Assembly (NCBI GenBank): GCA_023260435.1
Contig: JALQVG010000073.1
Span: 1 to 39,563, forward strand
Direction: 5' to 3'
From: Flavobacteriaceae bacterium
GTDB lineage: Bacteria > Bacteroidota > Bacteroidia > Flavobacteriales > Flavobacteriaceae
DNA length: 39,563 bases
Shown: positions 7,041 through 30,055 of the stretch, piece by piece
How the letters are laid out: every line of letters begins with the position of its first letter
How positions within the stretch are numbered: position 1 is the stretch's first letter
Made by a program: the position numbers and the translations under genes
Notes under the pieces: model-generated
Databases searched by the model: none
Told to the model about the DNA's origin: nothing
What the model saw: only the letters and a program-made list of their open reading frames with translations

Positions 7041-7069
7041 TTGTCATGTCAAAAATAGTAGTACATTTG
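7041..7069 (+). promoter_or_regulatory. Candidate promoter of marR-yceI (TTG-N18-TACATTTG)
   Basis: TTG 7041-7043, TACATTTG 7062-7069. Confidence 0.7.
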
Positions 7070-7091: not shown

Positions 7092-7550
7092 ATGAATGTT
7101 GAAGAAATCATAAAAGCATCAAAGCCCATAGCTCCAAGAGCACGCATAGGTCTTTTGATTCATATGGTGCACACCCACATTCAGGAAAATCTATTAGAAT
7201 CTCTAAAGCCCTTCGATATTAGTTTAGCACAATTTAATGTGCTCCGAATATTAAAAGGATATAGAGATACTGCGTACATGGAGACACTTAATGAGCGCAT
7301 GATTCACAAAAGCAGTAACACCACAAGAGTCGTGGACAAATTGATTGCCAAAGGACTGGTGGAACGAAAGGTATGCCCCGAAAACAGAAGAAAAATTGAA
7401 GTGAGTATCACCCAGGATGGAATTTCGTTACTCACCCAACTTTCAACATCTATTGCTGAAGCAGAAGAACTACTCACCCAGTCACTAAGTCTGGATGAGC
7501 TAGCACAATTAACCCAATTATTAAACAAATTTAAACCCAAAACAACATGA
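7092..7550 (+). CDS. MarR-family transcriptional regulator
   Basis: ISLAQFNVLRILKG ... SSNTTRVVDKLIAKGLVERKVCPENRRKIEVSIT wHTH. Confidence 0.9.
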   Translation: MNVEEIIKASKPIAPRARIGLLIHMVHTHIQENLLESLKPFDISLAQFNVLRILKGYRDTAYMETLNERMIHKSSNTTRVVDKLIAKGLVERKVCPENRRKIEVSITQDGISLLTQLSTSIAEAEELLTQSLSLDELAQLTQLLNKFKPKTT

Positions 7551-8155
7551 AAAAAGGATTATTATTGGCAGGAATTGCTGTGATGTTTGTCGCTTGTGGC
7601 GCCAAAAAAGAAAACCAAGAAGATACTGCAGTTGCTGTTGAAGCAACAACCAACAACACTGTTGCTGTGAAAGCTGCCGAAAGCCAAGTATTTTGGAAAG
7701 GCTACAAAGTTACTGGTCAACACGAGGGTACTATAGCGCTTACTGAAGGTAATTTGACTTTTGCAGATCAAGTACTCACAGGAGGTTCTTTCACTGTAGA
7801 CATGACTAGTCTTGTAGCTACCGACTTAGATGGTGAAATGAAAGGAAAGCTGGAAGGACATTTGAAATCAGATGATTTCTTTGGAACTGAAGCTCATCCT
7901 ACTGCTCAATTGGTCATCACTCAAGTAGGTGTAGACGCTGCAGGTGGATACCAAGTAACCGGAGACTTAACCATCAAAGGAATTACTCAGCCTGTAAGCT
8001 TCCCCATGACTATTGCTGAAAACACAGCCAAAGCATCATTGAAAATTGACCGTACACTATACGATATTCGTTACGGATCTAACAATTTCTTTGAAAACTT
8101 GGGTGACAAAGCCATCAACAATGAATTCGATCTAGAAGTAACCCTTCAATTTTAA
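7547..8155 (+). CDS. YceI-family lipoprotein
   Basis: Signal and lipobox MKKGLLLAGIAVMFVACG; YceI-like SQVFWKGYKVTGQHEGTIAL, DLTIKGITQPVSFP; overlaps marR by 4 nt. Confidence 0.88.
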   Translation: MKKGLLLAGIAVMFVACGAKKENQEDTAVAVEATTNNTVAVKAAESQVFWKGYKVTGQHEGTIALTEGNLTFADQVLTGGSFTVDMTSLVATDLDGEMKGKLEGHLKSDDFFGTEAHPTAQLVITQVGVDAAGGYQVTGDLTIKGITQPVSFPMTIAENTAKASLKIDRTLYDIRYGSNNFFENLGDKAINNEFDLEVTLQF

Positions 8156-8162
8156 ATAACAC

Positions 8163-8192
8163 TTGTTTTTTTGTACAGGTTACTTATCTTTG
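8163..8192 (+). promoter_or_regulatory. Candidate trp operon promoter (TTG-N19-TATCTTTG)
   Basis: TTG 8163-8165 and TATCTTTG 8185-8192, matching the Bacteroidota -33/-7 consensus. Confidence 0.7.
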
Positions 8193-8197
8193 GGGCC

Positions 8198-8254
8198 ATG
8201 AACAACAAAAACAAATTTTCTTGGTGGTGGAACAACTTACAGCAAAACCTGTGA
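8198..8254 (+). CDS. trpL: trp operon leader peptide MNNKNKFSWWWNNLQQNL (18 aa)
   Basis: Short ORF upstream of trpE with three consecutive TGG codons (8222-8230), followed by an intrinsic terminator; absent from the ORF track. Confidence 0.88.
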   Translation: MNNKNKFSWWWNNLQQNL

Positions 8255-8279
8255 GCAAACCCTACTGTATAACCATACT

Positions 8280-8308
8280 AAGGCTTGTCTTCACGACAAG
8301 CCTTTTTT
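8280..8308 (+). terminator. trp attenuator terminator hairpin
   Basis: AAGGCTTGTC (8280-8289) TTCAC GACAAGCCTT (8295-8304), perfect 10-bp stem followed by TTTT, 17 nt before the trpE ATG. Confidence 0.9.
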
Positions 8309-8324
8309 CATTAACAACCTTGCT

Positions 8325-9728
8325 ATGAGAATTCATCGTCTTAAAACTGACTACCAGAAATTACTGGCCGACACGCTTACTCCGGTGAGCGTTTACCTGA
8401 AGATCAGAGATCGATTTGCCCAAAGTATTTTGTTGGAGAGCAGTGATTATCACGCTAATGACAATAGTTTTTCCTACATCTGTTGTCAGCCAATAGCCTG
8501 GATCAAAATTGAAGGTGATCATGTAGAAGAGCGATTTCCAGATGGAAGTTCCGAAAACTATGTCTTAGAAAGCAAGAAAAGTGTACCCGATATTATTGCC
8601 CGTTTCAGCACCTCATTTGCCGTAGATGGTCCAGCTTTTAAATTTATCAACCACGGTCTGTTTGGCTATATGTCGTATGACAGCGTTCGCTATTTTGAGG
8701 ACATCTCCATTGAAAAAAAAGAGGCCAAAACTTCTATTCCAGATGTGTACTATGCTGTTTACCAAAACATCATAGCCATTAATCATTTCAATAATGAAGC
8801 GTATTTGTTTTGTCACCACACAGAAGATCAGACAAGTAATTTAGCTGAACTAGCTGGCTGGATTCAGGTACCCTCATTTCCCAGTTATCCGTTTAAACTA
8901 GTGGGCGATCAAAAAACCAATGTGGCTGATCAGGATTTTAAGTCTATGGTATCACTGGCAAAAACACATTGCCAACGAGGAGACGTATTTCAATTGGTAC
9001 TTTCCAGAAGGTTTGAGCAACCCTTTCAGGGCGATGAATTTAATGTATATCGGGCATTAAGAACGATCAATCCTTCTCCTTACTTATTTTATTTCGACTA
9101 CGGGAATTTTAAATTATTGGGCAGCTCTCCTGAAGCTCAATTAGTCGTAAAAAACGATTTATGCGAAATTCATCCTATAGCGGGTACTTTCCGCAGAACA
9201 GGAAACGATGAACAAGACGCGGAGCTTGCCAAAAAACTCAGCGAGGACGCTAAAGAAAATGCAGAGCATGTGATGTTGGTCGATCTCGCGCGCAATGATT
9301 TGAGCAGACACGGCCGAATTGTTCAAGTGGAAACCTATAAAGAGGTTCAATTTTTCTCTCATGTGATTCATTTAGTCTCCAAAGTAACCGGAAGAAAAAA
9401 ACCCGAAGTACCCACTATGAATGTAGTGGCCGATACGTTCCCTGCAGGAACTTTAAGCGGTGCTCCCAAGCACAAAGCCATGGAGCTAATCGAGCGCTAT
9501 GAACCTACGCCAAGAGGATATTATGGGGGGGCTATTGGATTTATGGATTTTTCAGGAAATTTTAACCACGCGATCATGATACGCACCTTTTTAAGCAAGA
9601 ACCAAACACTCTACTTTCAAGCAGGTGCTGGTATTGTAGCTGCATCAAGCGCGGAAGCTGAGAATCAAGAAACCTATAACAAACTAGGCGCTTTACAAAA
9701 AGCATTAACCATGGCAGAAGGCCTTTAA
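8325..9728 (+). CDS. trpE: Anthranilate synthase component I
   Basis: LLESSD near N-terminus (Trp feedback site); chorismate-binding motifs HPIAGTFRRTG, FPAGTLSGAPKHKAMELI, YYGGAIGFM. Confidence 0.96.
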   Translation: MRIHRLKTDYQKLLADTLTPVSVYLKIRDRFAQSILLESSDYHANDNSFSYICCQPIAWIKIEGDHVEERFPDGSSENYVLESKKSVPDIIARFSTSFAVDGPAFKFINHGLFGYMSYDSVRYFEDISIEKKEAKTSIPDVYYAVYQNIIAINHFNNEAYLFCHHTEDQTSNLAELAGWIQVPSFPSYPFKLVGDQKTNVADQDFKSMVSLAKTHCQRGDVFQLVLSRRFEQPFQGDEFNVYRALRTINPSPYLFYFDYGNFKLLGSSPEAQLVVKNDLCEIHPIAGTFRRTGNDEQDAELAKKLSEDAKENAEHVMLVDLARNDLSRHGRIVQVETYKEVQFFSHVIHLVSKVTGRKKPEVPTMNVVADTFPAGTLSGAPKHKAMELIERYEPTPRGYYGGAIGFMDFSGNFNHAIMIRTFLSKNQTLYFQAGAGIVAASSAEAENQETYNKLGALQKALTMAEGL

Positions 9729-9732
9729 GGAG

Positions 9733-10311
9733 ATGAAAGAAATACTTGTTATCGACAACTACGACAGTTTTACCTACAACTTGGTCCACCACCTCGAAGC
9801 GTTGGGCGCATCTGTACACGTGGTGCGCAACGACCAAATTACGCTGGAGGAAATAGCCCCCTACAACCACATCGTTTTGTCCCCCGGACCTGGAATACCC
9901 GATGAAGCTGGTCTGCTCAAAGCGATTATCCGACAATACGCGCCAACCAAAGCAATATTGGGTGTATGCTTGGGGCAACAAGCCATAGCTGAAGTGTTTG
10001 GAGGAAGCTTGACCAACTTGAGCCAAGTGTATCACGGAATAAGCACACCCATCGACGTAGATTCCTCTGAACCGATTTTCCAAGGCCTACCCACTCAAAT
10101 ACAGGTGGGAAGATATCATTCTTGGGTGGTGAACCAGACTGATTTGCCCGCTGTACTTCGCGTTACTGCTCGGGACTTAAATGGGCAAATTATGGCCATT
10201 CGACACAGGGAATATGAAGTTTGTGCGGTACAGTTTCACCCCGAGTCGATCCTTACCCCAGATGGCGCACATATGCTGTCTCAATGGCTGAAACACACCA
10301 AATACTTTTAG
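9733..10311 (+). CDS. trpG: Anthranilate synthase component II (glutamine amidotransferase)
   Basis: LVIDNYDSFTYNLVHHL, LSPGPGIPDEAG, GVCLGQQAIAEVFGG, VQFHPESILTPDG. Confidence 0.96.
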   Translation: MKEILVIDNYDSFTYNLVHHLEALGASVHVVRNDQITLEEIAPYNHIVLSPGPGIPDEAGLLKAIIRQYAPTKAILGVCLGQQAIAEVFGGSLTNLSQVYHGISTPIDVDSSEPIFQGLPTQIQVGRYHSWVVNQTDLPAVLRVTARDLNGQIMAIRHREYEVCAVQFHPESILTPDGAHMLSQWLKHTKYF

Positions 10312-10314
10312 CGG

Positions 10315-11319
10315 ATGAAGACCCTACTCAACCAATTGACCCAACACCAGCAACTGACCAAAGAGTCAGCCAAGGAAGTATTGACCCAAATCGCTCACGG
10401 TCAGTACTCAGAATCTGAGATCGCAGCATTCTTGACGGTATACATGATGCGCAGTATCAGTATTGAGGAATTAGCTGGGTTTCGGGATGCACTGCTTGAG
10501 CTTTGTATTCCTATAGACTTATCGGCATACACTCCGATTGACCTATGTGGCACTGGGGGTGACGGCAAAGACACTTTTAATATTTCAACTCTAGCCTCGT
10601 TTGTGACTGCTGGAGCAGGGATACACGTAGCCAAACACGGTAATTATGGAGTTTCGTCGGCCTGTGGGTCAAGTAATGTACTCGAAGCTTTGGGCATTAA
10701 ATTTAGCGCTGATGAGGCGTTTTTGCGCAGTTGTATCGAAAAGGCAGGTATCTGTGTACTGCACGCTCCTCTTTTTCACCCGGCCATGAAACAGGTGGCA
10801 CCCGTGCGCAGAAGTCTTGGAGTTAAAACTTTTTTCAATATGTTGGGGCCTATGGTGAACCCTTCAAGACCCAACTATCAGCTGGTGGGTGTTTTTCAAC
10901 TAGAACTGGCCAGGATGTATCAATACCTTTATCAAAAGGACCAAATTAAATACACCATTGTACATGCACTGGATGGGTACGATGAAATCTCCTTAACCGG
11001 AAGTGCCAAAATCATCACGCCACAAGGTGAGTCTTTATTAAGTCCTCAAGATTTTAAAGCCCAACTTTGGAGAATGGGTGATATTACTGGGGGAAATGGC
11101 GTGGAAGATGCTGCGAAAATTTTTCTAGAGGTACTCAAAGGCCAAGGCACCCAAGCGCAAAACGAGGTGGTTTGTGCCAATGCAGCATTGGCCATATCCA
11201 CTGTCAAAGGATGCAGTATAGCTCATGCTGTAGATCTCGCAGGAGAAAGCCTAAAGTCTGGGCGTGCTTATGAGTCATTTATTGAATTGCAAAACATATC
11301 TAAGTCATGGATATCCTAA
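10315..11319 (+). CDS. trpD: Anthranilate phosphoribosyltransferase
   Basis: DLCGTGGDGKDTFNIST, KHGNYGVSSACGSSNVLEALG, NMLGPMVNPSRP. Confidence 0.96.
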   Translation: MKTLLNQLTQHQQLTKESAKEVLTQIAHGQYSESEIAAFLTVYMMRSISIEELAGFRDALLELCIPIDLSAYTPIDLCGTGGDGKDTFNISTLASFVTAGAGIHVAKHGNYGVSSACGSSNVLEALGIKFSADEAFLRSCIEKAGICVLHAPLFHPAMKQVAPVRRSLGVKTFFNMLGPMVNPSRPNYQLVGVFQLELARMYQYLYQKDQIKYTIVHALDGYDEISLTGSAKIITPQGESLLSPQDFKAQLWRMGDITGGNGVEDAAKIFLEVLKGQGTQAQNEVVCANAALAISTVKGCSIAHAVDLAGESLKSGRAYESFIELQNISKSWIS

Positions 11320-12095
11320 CCCGCATATGCCGCAACAAACAAGTGCAAGTAGACCTGGTGAAAAATCAGGTGCCCCTATCTGTGCTGCAGTCCATGCCTT
11401 TGTATGCGAGAAATACCGTTTCACTAAGGGAGGCATTAAGCCACAGCGCCAGTGGATTGATCACAGAACACAAAAGAAGATCTCCCTCGAAAAACCATAT
11501 TAGAACAGATCACCATATTCAAGAGGTGGCCCAAGGCTACCAATCTGGAGGTGCCTGCGGTATGTCCGTATTGACCGAAGTAGGTTATTTTGGCGGAGCA
11601 CCAGAGGACTTGATTATTGCGCGTGCCAGTTGTACCTTACCCCTATTGCGCAAAGACTTTATGGTGGATCCCTATCAGGTCCACGAAGCAAAAGCATGGG
11701 GTGCCGACGTGATCTTGTTAATCGCGGCCGCATTAGATCCCAAGTCGATTGATGTACTGAGCGGTTTAGCGCATGAGTTAGGCTTGGAAGTGCTTCTGGA
11801 GGTTCATGACTTGTCTGAACTCAATCGCTCACTGACACCTAACATTGATATGGTCGGAGTCAATAACCGAAATTTAAAGACCTTTGAGGTATCGACACAG
11901 GTAAGTATCGAACTTGCCCGGCACATTCCGGATCACCTGGTTAAGATTTCAGAAAGTGGATTGACTGACGCACAAGAAATTAGGGCATTACGATCCGTGG
12001 GATACCGTGGCTTTCTCGTTGGTGAACATTTGATGAAATCGGATAACCCCGGTGAGGCTACGCGATTAATGATTGAAGAAATTACCCGATTATGA
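11307..12095 (+). CDS. trpC: Indole-3-glycerol-phosphate synthase
   Basis: ITEHKRRSPSK, CGMSVLTEVGYFGG, LLRKDFMVDPYQV, VGVNNRNLKTFEV, ISESGL; overlaps trpD by 13 nt. Confidence 0.95.
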   Translation: MDILTRICRNKQVQVDLVKNQVPLSVLQSMPLYARNTVSLREALSHSASGLITEHKRRSPSKNHIRTDHHIQEVAQGYQSGGACGMSVLTEVGYFGGAPEDLIIARASCTLPLLRKDFMVDPYQVHEAKAWGADVILLIAAALDPKSIDVLSGLAHELGLEVLLEVHDLSELNRSLTPNIDMVGVNNRNLKTFEVSTQVSIELARHIPDHLVKISESGLTDAQEIRALRSVGYRGFLVGEHLMKSDNPGEATRLMIEEITRL

Positions 12096-12748
12096 GCTTA
12101 AATCGTCTGGAACTAAAAGTTTGCGGCATGACCCAAAGGGAGAATATCCAAGCTGTATTGGAGGTAAAACCTGATTGGATCGGGCTCATTTTCTGGCCTA
12201 AGTCCAAACGATATTGTTCCTTGGACCCTGAGCAATGGCAAACTATTGATTTGGGCCAAACAAAGTCGGTGGGCGTATTTGTCGATCAACCCATGGATGA
12301 AGTAATACAAATCGCACACACCTATGACCTTGACGGCCTTCAGCTGCATGGGAACGAATCAACTGAGTACCTGAAAACACTTAGAAGCCAACTACCCGAA
12401 GTAGCGATAATAAAAGCGTTTTCCATAGATCACCACTTTGATTGGAGCCTACTATCGCCCTATCAAGAGCACAGTGACCTATTTTTATTCGATACTAAAG
12501 GACCGCTACCTGGCGGAAATGGAACAGCATTTGATTGGACCATTTTGACACAATATCCAGGATCAACTCCCTTTTTATTGAGTGGTGGAATACATCTAGG
12601 ATTGACAAAAAATCTTTTGGAATGGATCCATACTCCGGCTTCTAAGTGGTGTGTAGGGATCGATGTGAATTCTGGTTTTGAAGTCAGTCCAGGAATAAAG
12701 AATCCAGAACTAATTAAGGAATTGAGCCAACAGTGCAAACAATTATAA
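12092..12748 (+). CDS. trpF: Phosphoribosylanthranilate isomerase
   Basis: [48 protein letters not shown]. Confidence 0.93.
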
Positions 12749-12758
12749 ATCAGAGCAG

Positions 12759-13946
12759 ATGAAAAAAAGTTATCAAGTGGACGAGTGGGGTTATTACGGA
12801 ACATTTGGTGGGGCATATATCCCTGAAATGCTCTACCCAAACACGGAAGAATTGCGCAGTCAATACCTGAAGATTATGGCCGAGCCAGAATTTCAAAAGG
12901 AATTTAACCAACTGCTAAAAGACTATGTGGGCCGACCTACCCCTTTGTATTTGGCCCAGCGTTTATCCGCCCAAGTAGGTTGTAAAATCTACTTAAAACG
13001 GGAAGATTTATGTCATACGGGGGCACATAAAATCAATAATACCATCGGACAGATTCTCATGGCCAAGAAATTGGGCAAATCAAGAATTATTGCCGAAACA
13101 GGGGCTGGTCAGCACGGTGTGGCCACCGCGACTGTATGTGCCTTAATGGGCATGGAGTGTATCGTCTACATGGGCGAGGTGGATATCAAACGTCAAGCAC
13201 CTAACGTCGCGCGTATGAAAATGCTGGGGGCGCAAGTACGTCCAGCTACTTCAGGATCTAAAACCCTAAAAGACGCTACTAACGAAGCGATTAGAGATTG
13301 GATCAATAACCCGGTGAATACCCATTACATCATCGGATCCGTAGTTGGACCTCATCCTTATCCCGATATGGTAGCCAGGTTTCAGTCCGTAATAGCTCAA
13401 GAGACCATGGAGCAATTATTGGAGTTAGAGGGCCGGGACTATCCAGATGCGGTTGTGGCTTGTGTGGGGGGAGGAAGCAACGCTGCTGGTGCTTACTATC
13501 ATTACCTAGACCGCGAAGAAGTGCGGATAATCGCCGTGGAAGCTGCAGGTAAAGGAATTGACACCCATGAAAGTGCTGCCACCTCAGTCTTGGGAAGAGA
13601 AGGCATTATCCACGGCTCGAAAACATTACTCATGCAGTCTCCAGATGGACAAATCACAGAACCCTACTCTATTTCAGCAGGACTTGATTATCCGGGTATT
13701 GGGCCGATGCACGCTCATCTATTCCGTTCTAAAAGAGGAGAGTTTATCTCGGCTACAGACCAACAAGCTATGGAGGCTGGATTGATGTTGAGTCAATTAG
13801 AAGGAATTATTCCCGCTATTGAAACTTCGCATGCCTTGGCGGTATTGGATCAATTAAACTTTAAATCAACGGATGTGGTTGTGGTTAACCTCTCAGGAAG
13901 AGGAGATAAAGACCTGAATACCTACATCGATTACTTTAAATTATAG
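12759..13946 (+). CDS. trpB: Tryptophan synthase beta subunit
   Basis: [53 protein letters not shown]. Confidence 0.97.
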
Positions 13947-13949
13947 GAC

Positions 13950-14717
13950 ATGAGTACACGAATTGAACAGCTGTTTCAAAAAAAGAAAAAAGTACTTTCC
14001 ATATACTTCACCGCAGGTTATCCAAAGCATTCAGACACCCTCCCTATTTTGGAATCCTTACAAGAACAAGGGGTGGATATGGTGGAAATCGGTTTGCCGT
14101 TCTCAGATCCATTAGCTGACGGCCCAGTTATCCAACAAAGTTCAACTCAGGCTTTGGCTATGGGCATGACTACTGAAGTACTCTTCGATCAATTGAAGGA
14201 TGTCCGGTCGAAAATTGAAATACCCCTAGTCATCATGGGCTATTTCAATCCGGTTTTACAGTTTGGGGTAGACGCATTCTGTCGCAAATGCGCAGAAATA
14301 GGAATTGATGCCGTAATCCTACCTGACCTGCCCTTAACGGTATACGAACGAGAATATCAAGAGATTTTTGAACGCCATGGTATTCAATTAATCTTTTTGA
14401 TCACCCCACAAACCTCAGATGAACGAATCATTGCTTTGGACCAAGCCAGTAAAGGATTTATCTATTTAGTCAGCACGGCCAGCGTAACTGGAAGTGGATC
14501 AGGTTTTGGTCAAGCTCAAGTTGACTATTTCAAACGCATTTCAGACATGAAGCTTAAAAACCCCATCGTGGTTGGTTTTGGCATTAAAGACCGGGAGACC
14601 TTCAGTCAAGCCACTGCTCACACCGATGGTGCGATTATTGGTTCTGCGTTTATCAACGCATTGACTGAAAAAGGAACAGCTGTGATTCCCGAATTCATCA
14701 AAGGGATACGCGGTTAA
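13950..14717 (+). CDS. trpA: Tryptophan synthase alpha subunit
   Basis: YFTAGYPKHSDT, VEIGLPFSDPLADGPVIQQSSTQAL, VILPDLPL, YLVSTASVTGSGSGF, VGFGIK. Confidence 0.96.
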   Translation: MSTRIEQLFQKKKKVLSIYFTAGYPKHSDTLPILESLQEQGVDMVEIGLPFSDPLADGPVIQQSSTQALAMGMTTEVLFDQLKDVRSKIEIPLVIMGYFNPVLQFGVDAFCRKCAEIGIDAVILPDLPLTVYEREYQEIFERHGIQLIFLITPQTSDERIIALDQASKGFIYLVSTASVTGSGSGFGQAQVDYFKRISDMKLKNPIVVGFGIKDRETFSQATAHTDGAIIGSAFINALTEKGTAVIPEFIKGIRG

Positions 14718-23831: not shown

Positions 23832-24419
23832 TCAGTCTCCGAAAAGTATGCGGATGTTCGTGTAGGATTTGGTTAGTGCTTTGGTGATTTGCTCTGGATT
23901 TTTCCACTTTACTTTTTCAATCCCCTCATCGGCTTGAGGCGATAAAGGCCCTGAATAGCTGGTGCGCATGGCATACCAAAACACCTCTTTCAAACGATAT
24001 TTATCTTTACGCTTAAAAACGTGGTAAGTGGTCAATAACTGGTTTTCAATTTTTAACTCCTTAACGCCAGTCTCCTCAGCGACCTCCCTTAGAGCGCACA
24101 CTTCAAGAGATTCGCCCTTTTCTAGCCTGCCTTTGGGCAAATCCCATTTATTGTTTCTGTAAATAAAAAGCACTTCGCCTTGCTTGTTGGTCACTACCCC
24201 ACCAGCAGCCACTTCTCTTTTAATGCTTTTGCAGAATTTATTCAGTATTTCTGAATGATTGGGGTGATAGATATAAGCCTTCTTGATTTTACCTTCCATA
24301 AGTAAATCAATCGCCTCGTTAATCGCCTCTGGATTCAACAAAAAGTACTTGTTGTTGTTGATTTCAGACAGTTTATTTGTCAGAATGAGCGGAGCTTCAT
24401 TCACAAAAACTTTATACAT
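23832..24419 (-). CDS. NUDIX hydrolase
   Basis: NUDIX box GRLEKGESLEVCALREVAEETGV. Confidence 0.92.
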   Translation of the reverse strand: MYKVFVNEAPLILTNKLSEINNNKYFLLNPEAINEAIDLLMEGKIKKAYIYHPNHSEILNKFCKSIKREVAAGGVVTNKQGEVLFIYRNNKWDLPKGRLEKGESLEVCALREVAEETGVKELKIENQLLTTYHVFKRKDKYRLKEVFWYAMRTSYSGPLSPQADEGIEKVKWKNPEQITKALTKSYTNIRILFGD

Positions 24420-24422
24420 TTG
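24415..24422 (+). promoter_or_regulatory. Candidate pyrE -7 promoter element TACATTTG
   Basis: Matches TAnnTTTG; ends 5 nt before the pyrE ATG (24428); no canonical -33 TTG found at usual spacing. Confidence 0.5.
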
Positions 24423-24427
24423 TGCCT

Positions 24428-25069
24428 ATGATTTTACATCCAGAAACAGCGCGTAAAACAGCTGACCTCCTACTGCAAATAAATGCAATTAAATTGAATC
24501 CCGGAAATCCTTTTTTATGGGCTTCCGGATGGAAATCCCCGATCTATTGCGACAATAGAATCATGCTTTCCCACGTAGAAGTGCGCACGTATGTGGCCGA
24601 GCAGATGGCTCAACAGATCAAAAACACCTACCCCAAAGCTCAAGTAATCGCTGGAGTAGCTACCGGGGCTATAGGTGTAGGTATGCTCGTCGCACAGATA
24701 CTCTCGCTTCCCTTTGTGTATGTTCGTCCTGAACCGAAATCACATGGCAGAAAAAACCAAATCGAAGGATCCTTAGAACCAGGTTCGTCTGTAGTGGTTA
24801 TCGAAGATTTAATCAGCACGGGTAAAAGCAGTTTATTGGCCGTTGAGGCACTGAAGGCATCAGGAGCTGAAGTGTTGGGTATGATCGCCATTTTCACCTA
24901 TGGTTTTGAACACGCCCAGCAGGCCTTTGACGCACAAAAAGTAACACTGAACACATTAAGTGACTATGCACACCTTATTGAAAGTGCTTTGGCACAGGGT
25001 GTAGTAGACCATAACGCACATCAAACCCTCCTTGATTGGAGAAAAAATCCAGCCCAGTGGGGTCAATAG
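24428..25069 (+). CDS. pyrE: Orotate phosphoribosyltransferase
   Basis: NPGNPFLWASGWKSPIYCDNR, GVATGAIGVGMLVA, VVVIEDLISTGKSSLLAVEAL. Confidence 0.95.
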   Translation: MILHPETARKTADLLLQINAIKLNPGNPFLWASGWKSPIYCDNRIMLSHVEVRTYVAEQMAQQIKNTYPKAQVIAGVATGAIGVGMLVAQILSLPFVYVRPEPKSHGRKNQIEGSLEPGSSVVVIEDLISTGKSSLLAVEALKASGAEVLGMIAIFTYGFEHAQQAFDAQKVTLNTLSDYAHLIESALAQGVVDHNAHQTLLDWRKNPAQWGQ

Positions 25070-29251: not shown

Positions 29252-30055
29252 ATGAGAAATGCCCTTAGAAGATCATTGACCGGCTTGGTCTACGTGTGTT
29301 TGTTGCTTGCTGCGGTATTTTTAAACTCGGACGCTTTCGACTTCCTGTTTATGTCCTTTGGACTGGCCTGTATTTTTGAGTACAAAAAACTGAGTAAAAT
29401 CAGGGGTTATCTAATTTTTGCCCTGTACCTTTTGTTGTGGTGGGCCTACATCTATCTACTCCACGACCCCATCTCGCCTTGGATTTTATTGATCGCTACA
29501 TTAGCGATGAATATCAGGCTGATCGTCTATCTGTTTAATACCACCAAAGATAAAATGCCTGAAAGTCATCGTTTGATCACTGGGCTGCTTTATGTAGGTG
29601 GCGGTAGCATTTTTTTGACGATGATTCCCTACAGAGCTCAGGGTTTTGACTCCATACTTATCGCAGGTATTTTCTGTGTGATCTGGGCCAATGATACCAT
29701 GGCCTATGTCACGGGAAGTTTGTGGGGGAAAAACAAATTATTTCCCAGTGTGTCGCCCAACAAAACGGTTGAGGGAGCCATTGGAGGGTTGATTTTTGGG
29801 ATGTCCGCAGCCTATCTTTGTGGTCATTTTGGGGGTCCGCTCACCCCTTTTCAATGGGGAATACTCTCATTTGTCCTGATTGTATCAGGTAACTTGGGTG
29901 ATCTTTTGGAATCTAAATTGAAACGCGCTGCAGGAGTAAAAGACAGCGGCGCTATATTACCTGGCCACGGAGGCATGTTAGATCGTCTGGACAGTTTACT
30001 TTTTTCTGCCCCATGGGCTTATTTGACGTTGTTTATATTTGATTATGTTTCATAA
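29252..30055 (+). CDS. cdsA: Phosphatidate cytidylyltransferase
   Basis: SPNKTVEGAIGGLIFGM, GNLGDLLESKLKRAAGVKDSGAILPGHGGMLDRLDSLLFSAP. Confidence 0.95.
   Translation: MRNALRRSLTGLVYVCLLLAAVFLNSDAFDFLFMSFGLACIFEYKKLSKIRGYLIFALYLLLWWAYIYLLHDPISPWILLIATLAMNIRLIVYLFNTTKDKMPESHRLITGLLYVGGGSIFLTMIPYRAQGFDSILIAGIFCVIWANDTMAYVTGSLWGKNKLFPSVSPNKTVEGAIGGLIFGMSAAYLCGHFGGPLTPFQWGILSFVLIVSGNLGDLLESKLKRAAGVKDSGAILPGHGGMLDRLDSLLFSAPWAYLTLFIFDYVS

Follow-up and report, generated by a model that had tools for sequence, protein, structure and literature searches.

A trp operon leader peptide predicted to be translated from a near-leaderless mRNA in a member of the Flavobacteriaceae

How does a ribosome gain access to the leader peptide of a trp attenuator when the promoter ends almost at its start codon? 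This question is raised by a trp operon located in the window, by which we mean the whole 39,563-nt stretch of Flavobacteriaceae DNA analyzed here. On the plus strand, to which all window features described below belong, trpE-trpG-trpD-trpC-trpF-trpB-trpA (8325–14717, from ORFs and Pfam) is predicted to be controlled by an 18-aa leader peptide, MNNKNKFSWWWNNLQQNL, encoded at 8198–8254 with a UGA stop codon. Three consecutive and conserved Trp codons (WWW, 8222–8230) represent the predicted stall site at low Trp-tRNA, and leaders with Trp runs are found upstream of trpE throughout the family. The leader is preceded by marR (7092–7550) and yceI (7547–8155), both identified from ORFs and Pfam, with the yceI stop only 42 nt before the leader ATG. 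yceI apparently also immediately precedes the trp leader in many genera (L007–L012, L016, L017, L019, L022, L025, and L027).

The 42-nt gap between yceI and the leader is occupied by the leader promoter. A −33 element, TTG (8163–8165), and a 19-nt spacer (8166–8184) precede the −7 box TATCTTTG (8185–8192), which fits the TAHHTTTG consensus of the primary Bacteroidota sigma factor. The sequence GGGCC (8193–8197) separates this box from the leader ATG (8198–8200), leaving a gap of 5 nt. The preliminary description had placed each of these elements exactly. The box is the sole plus-strand TAHHTTTG between matches at 7062 and 23205, and a sigma-70 scan revealed no plausible site. In Flavobacterium johnsoniae, the −7 element extends from T-12 to G-5, with a distance of 4 or 5 nt between the element and the start site (PMC6847099), and in Flavobacterium psychrophilum the sigma-A box is located at −12 to −5 (PMC9723704). 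Based on these published distances, transcription is predicted to start at 8197 (4 nt past the box) or at 8198 (5 nt past it, the A of the AUG), giving a 5′ UTR of 1 or 0 nt. Two other candidates in this region were rejected: GGGG (8192–8195) as a Shine-Dalgarno (SD) sequence, as it is replaced by GAGG in the nearest relatives and by unrelated letters in others, and the in-frame TTG at 8171 as an alternative start, as it sits within the promoter and would not be transcribed from it.

We searched for TrpE in 60 relatives and 160 family genomes and read the upstream DNA of 166 loci, mostly one per genus, with 12 from the genus of the window. Of the 166 regions, 155 combine a Trp-run leader with a consensus box, which lies at most 46 nt from the leader start. 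In 118 of the 155, a spacer of 19 or 20 nt separates TTG from the box, with any other spacing accounting for nine at most. Judging from these sequences, the presence of the promoter beside the leader is far beyond chance, and the earlier proposal of a Bacteroidota sigma-A promoter is borne out. The gap between box and start codon is 0 nt in one leader, 4 nt in 22, 5 nt in 31, 6 nt in two, 7–12 nt in 34, and more than 22 nt in four, with no gaps of 1–3 nt; a second mode of 61 leaders lies at 14–22 nt. A gap of exactly 4 or 5 nt is thereby found in 53 of the 155 leaders. Where several in-frame starts were available, start-codon choice favored this class, which still has 46 members if ATG alone is allowed. 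Genome-wide, only a minority of Flavobacterium mRNAs are leaderless (5.5%; PMC9723704); against this F. psychrophilum rate, a naive binomial calculation for the 4- to 5-nt class gives P = 7e-28, a value that is too small owing to the relatedness of the sequences.

According to a TrpE tree of 55 loci, the 4- to 5-nt class requires five changes, and in the clade of the window this gap is kept in 27 of 30 scoreable members. Its length is held while its letters vary, the 53 leaders showing 41 distinct sequences. The fraction of A is 0.38 in the 4- to 5-nt gap versus 0.69 in the 10 nt immediately preceding the start codon of the 14- to 22-nt class, whose pre-start region resembles the ordinary A-rich initiation regions of Bacteroidota. 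A transcript starting at, or within a few nucleotides of, the AUG, as initially suggested, is thus supported as a prediction. The same suggestion attributed the lack of an SD to the short 5′ end. This explanation does not hold, since SDs are generally absent from Bacteroidota (PMC6847099) and an SD-like motif was found in none of the 155 leaders of either class, longer UTRs included; in a phylum without SD, this absence is a weak discriminator for leaderlessness. As a 14- to 22-nt gap is present in about 40% of the relatives, the attenuator does not require leaderlessness. The 4- to 5-nt gap occurs in members of Cellulophaga, Maribacter, Flagellimonas/Allomuricauda, Eudoraea, Euzebyella, and Kaistella and in Flavobacterium kayseriense; trp leaders of Bacteroides and Parabacteroides have gaps of 23–25 nt. 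Six predicted leaderless trp leaders start with GTG 4–5 nt past the box (L005, L006, L073, L138, L140, and L154).

As a background for this spacing, we examined a 0.5-Mb sample of the window's genome. A box is present within 100 nt of the first ATG in 93 of 424 genes, and in 17 of these 93 it is 4–5 nt away, versus 0–1 for permuted boxes. The N-termini encoded by some of these genes read as those of shikimate kinase and UvrB. Genome-wide, TAHHTTTG-N4-5-ATG occurs 79 times versus 29 for the reversed pattern, and leaderless genes are predicted to be routine in this organism. Two other amino-acid leaders of the same genome have a 4-nt gap past a consensus −7 box: the his leader MIMKKHHHHTSLLLQTR, in the arrangement TACTTTTG-CATC-ATG (G000:C55:2638-2652, in L297 and L454), and the thr leader MAFSGVFTFTTNTLTTGTTAPMTTPWG, in the arrangement TACTTTTG-TGTT-ATG (G000:C80:65872-65886, minus strand, in L457). 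The trp, his, and thr leaders of this genome are thus all predicted to be leaderless. We dropped the idea of a trp-specific spacing, as a 4-nt gap also precedes the his leader in this genome and in its two nearest relatives. Among 29 sampled genera, none of the his leaders has a gap of 4–5 nt and 22 have one of 14–21 nt; few thr leaders were readable in other genera, with gaps of 7–23 nt. Upstream regions of ilvD provided few clear leaders. The box at G000:C56:2611 was rejected as that of an ilv leader because it opens a long ORF. In another genus (L258), a possible branched-chain leader (MKRKIHIVISIVGY) begins 4 nt past TACATTTG upstream of ilvD. Elsewhere in the window, TACATTTG-TGCCT-ATG (24415–24430) opens a 214-aa ORF (MILHPETARKTADLLLQINA...) that is predicted to be leaderless and looks like an orotate phosphoribosyltransferase, and a 226-aa ORF begins 3 nt past TATATTTG (30034–30047, box at 30034).

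Folded from the AUG, the leader RNA (z = −4.0) forms two structures. In the minimum-energy fold, segment 1, CUUACAG (8236–8242), pairs with segment 2, CUGUGAG (8249–8255), which lies over the stop codon, to give the 1:2 hairpin. The intrinsic terminator (8280–8308) follows, with a 10-bp stem (8280–8304) and a T run (8303–8308). Fold, simulation, and comparison identify segment 2 as the antiterminator strand, and complementarity and covariation define its target as UUCACG (8290–8295), the terminator loop and the first base of the 3′ arm. Comparison of the relatives reveals a UCGUGA element close to the stop codon that is complementary to UCACGA in the terminator loop and the beginning of the 3′ arm, and that persists even where the stop codon has moved. 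The exact 6-mer complement is found in 106 of 133 homologues versus 0.6 expected. Each of the six pairs is kept in 119–125 of 125 sequences, and three of them show two-sided changes (UA to CG, CG to UA, and UA to CG). We simulated the 2:3 pairing by constrained folding of the RNA cut just past the terminator loop. A ribosome placed at the third Trp codon allows about 7 pairs to form, averaged over the 133 homologues, and moving it to the stop codon reduces this mean to about 0.2. The window's own helix joins UGUGAG (8250–8255) to UUCACG (8290–8295) and is weaker than in most relatives, with a C-A mismatch, two G-U pairs, and five pairs in the simulation. The full-length leader RNA still favors the terminator in the folding calculation; antitermination would therefore have to be kinetic, taking place during transcription. 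The sequence combines the features of a ribosome-mediated trp attenuator: consecutive Trp codons, an intrinsic terminator before trpE, and a mutually exclusive antiterminator that, according to comparative pairing and simulation, is freed by stalling at the Trp codons, less strongly so in the window.

Could this terminator instead be controlled by another factor, protein or RNA, independently of translation? The Trp response of this organism is a prediction, which leaves room for such a factor. We nevertheless regard it as highly improbable in view of the conserved consecutive Trp codons, of the antiterminator kept in the stop region despite moved stop codons, and of the terminator itself. It is also very unlikely that the spacing of 4–5 nt is incidental and that transcription starts a few nucleotides upstream or downstream of the predicted site, so that the mRNA would either carry a short, conventional 5′ leader or begin within the ORF. 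The sharp peak at 4–5 nt equals the measured box-to-start distance exactly and is held across a deep clade, and an mRNA beginning within the ORF would lose the conserved leader. These points outweigh the observations that start-site choice shifts by a few nucleotides and that 34 of the 155 relatives have gaps of 7–12 nt.

The main uncertainty at the locus of the window is read-through from yceI, because the interval between yceI and the leader (8155–8198) yielded no terminator. Read-through may therefore generate transcripts with a long 5′ end. They would originate from TACATTTG (7062–7069), the likely promoter of the marR-yceI unit, and, were they the principal template, the leader would be translated mostly from leadered mRNA, the near-leaderless promoter being minor. 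The congener L007 carries a strong 15-bp terminator between yceI and the leader, which the window and its nearest relatives lack. However, the near-perfect promoter is conserved in the 155 regions, some of them insulated from yceI by a terminator, and we consider it unlikely that read-through is the main source of the leader mRNA.

The reading that we favor, with a probability of about 85%, is that trpEGDCFBA is attenuated via a leader peptide translated from a leaderless or near-leaderless mRNA initiated at the TTG-N19-TATCTTTG promoter. Promoter, spacing, ORF, terminator, and covarying antiterminator are all evident from the sequence and its comparison with relatives. For the start at 8197/8198, the initiation by 70S ribosomes, and the response to Trp, we infer the following scheme. 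The trp mRNA would begin with the AUG itself or 1 nt earlier. A ribosome, most simply a 70S particle on the 5′-terminal AUG, would load once the 5′ end clears the RNA polymerase. When Trp-tRNA is low, it would stall on the three Trp codons and mask segment 1 (8236–8242), leaving segment 2 (8249–8255) free to pair with 8290–8295 in the loop and the beginning of the 3′ arm. This pairing would block nucleation of the terminator and allow transcription of trpEGDCFBA. With ample Trp, the ribosome would proceed to the stop codon and cover segment 2, and the terminator (8280–8308) would form. It may also be, although we propose this only tentatively, that selection has made initiation at the first base the default for amino-acid leaders in this lineage, as the 4- to 5-nt gaps of the trp, his, and thr leaders would suggest. 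Such a start would provide the earliest 70S loading on an attenuator of about 110 nt and would thereby couple the first ribosome to RNA polymerase in bacteria whose phylum lacks an SD that could accelerate this step.

A near-leaderless trp leader thus appears to be present in this flavobacterium and in dozens of related genera, as predicted from their DNA. The survey represents a natural experiment: in a phylum without SD, the same attenuator is predicted to be leaderless in about 40 genera and to carry a short A-rich 5′ UTR in about 60. The dependence of attenuation on the loading of the first ribosome can therefore be addressed directly, as can the question of whether leaderless initiation has the speed and reliability needed for its timing.

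The E. coli trpL leader resembles that of the window in its consecutive Trp codons, its alternative hairpins, and its terminator before trpE. Unlike the latter, it is SD-led and has a longer 5′ UTR. The two also differ in the part of the terminator that enters the 2:3 hairpin, which is the 5′ arm in E. coli and, here, the loop together with the beginning of the 3′ arm. Closer to the window is the Bacteroid-trp leader RNA (Rfam RF01692; Weinberg et al. 2010, PMC2864571), which likewise precedes trp genes in Bacteroidota and contains Trp codons, and whose model extends as far as the AAGGCUUGUC terminator arm that is also present here. The window gave no match at the RF01692 gathering threshold; a relaxed search gave 29.0 bits (E about 0.1) versus a threshold of 49. 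This threshold is passed by the congeners L010 (52.3 bits) and L005 (51.2 bits) and by 24 other regions. By position, anatomy, and close relatives, the leader of the window is related to RF01692 despite falling below the formal threshold. In members with a 4- to 5-nt gap, the approximately 20 nt that the model places before the AUG correspond to promoter DNA; Bacteroides members have a gap of 23–24 nt. This suggests that the 5′ edge of the model includes promoter DNA in the former. In the window, promoter DNA at 8178–8197 aligns to model positions 1–20, which may lower the scores of such members.

Leader-peptide attenuation before amino-acid operons was already noted in F. psychrophilum (PMC9723704), and a search of the open-access literature for leaderless leader peptides in Bacteroidota yielded no report. 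The mechanism had been anticipated to be unusual. It appears to be new for Bacteroidota and for this RNA family, but not for biology, as two precedents exist. For trpL (rnTrpL) of Sinorhizobium meliloti, leaderless translation is established, Ribo-seq included; the AUG is likewise the 5′ end of the mRNA, and the attenuator is ribosome-mediated (PMC7298713; PMC10117765). This system differs in phylum, promoter, and RNA sequence, and both its leader RNA and the encoded peptide have additional functions in trans. Similarly, TrpL1 of Streptomyces lividans (MFAHSTRNWWWTAHPAAH) is an 18-aa WWW leader reported to be transcribed leaderless before trpE (PMC8079986), but it is actinobacterial and precedes a monocistronic trpE, in contrast to the full operon found here.
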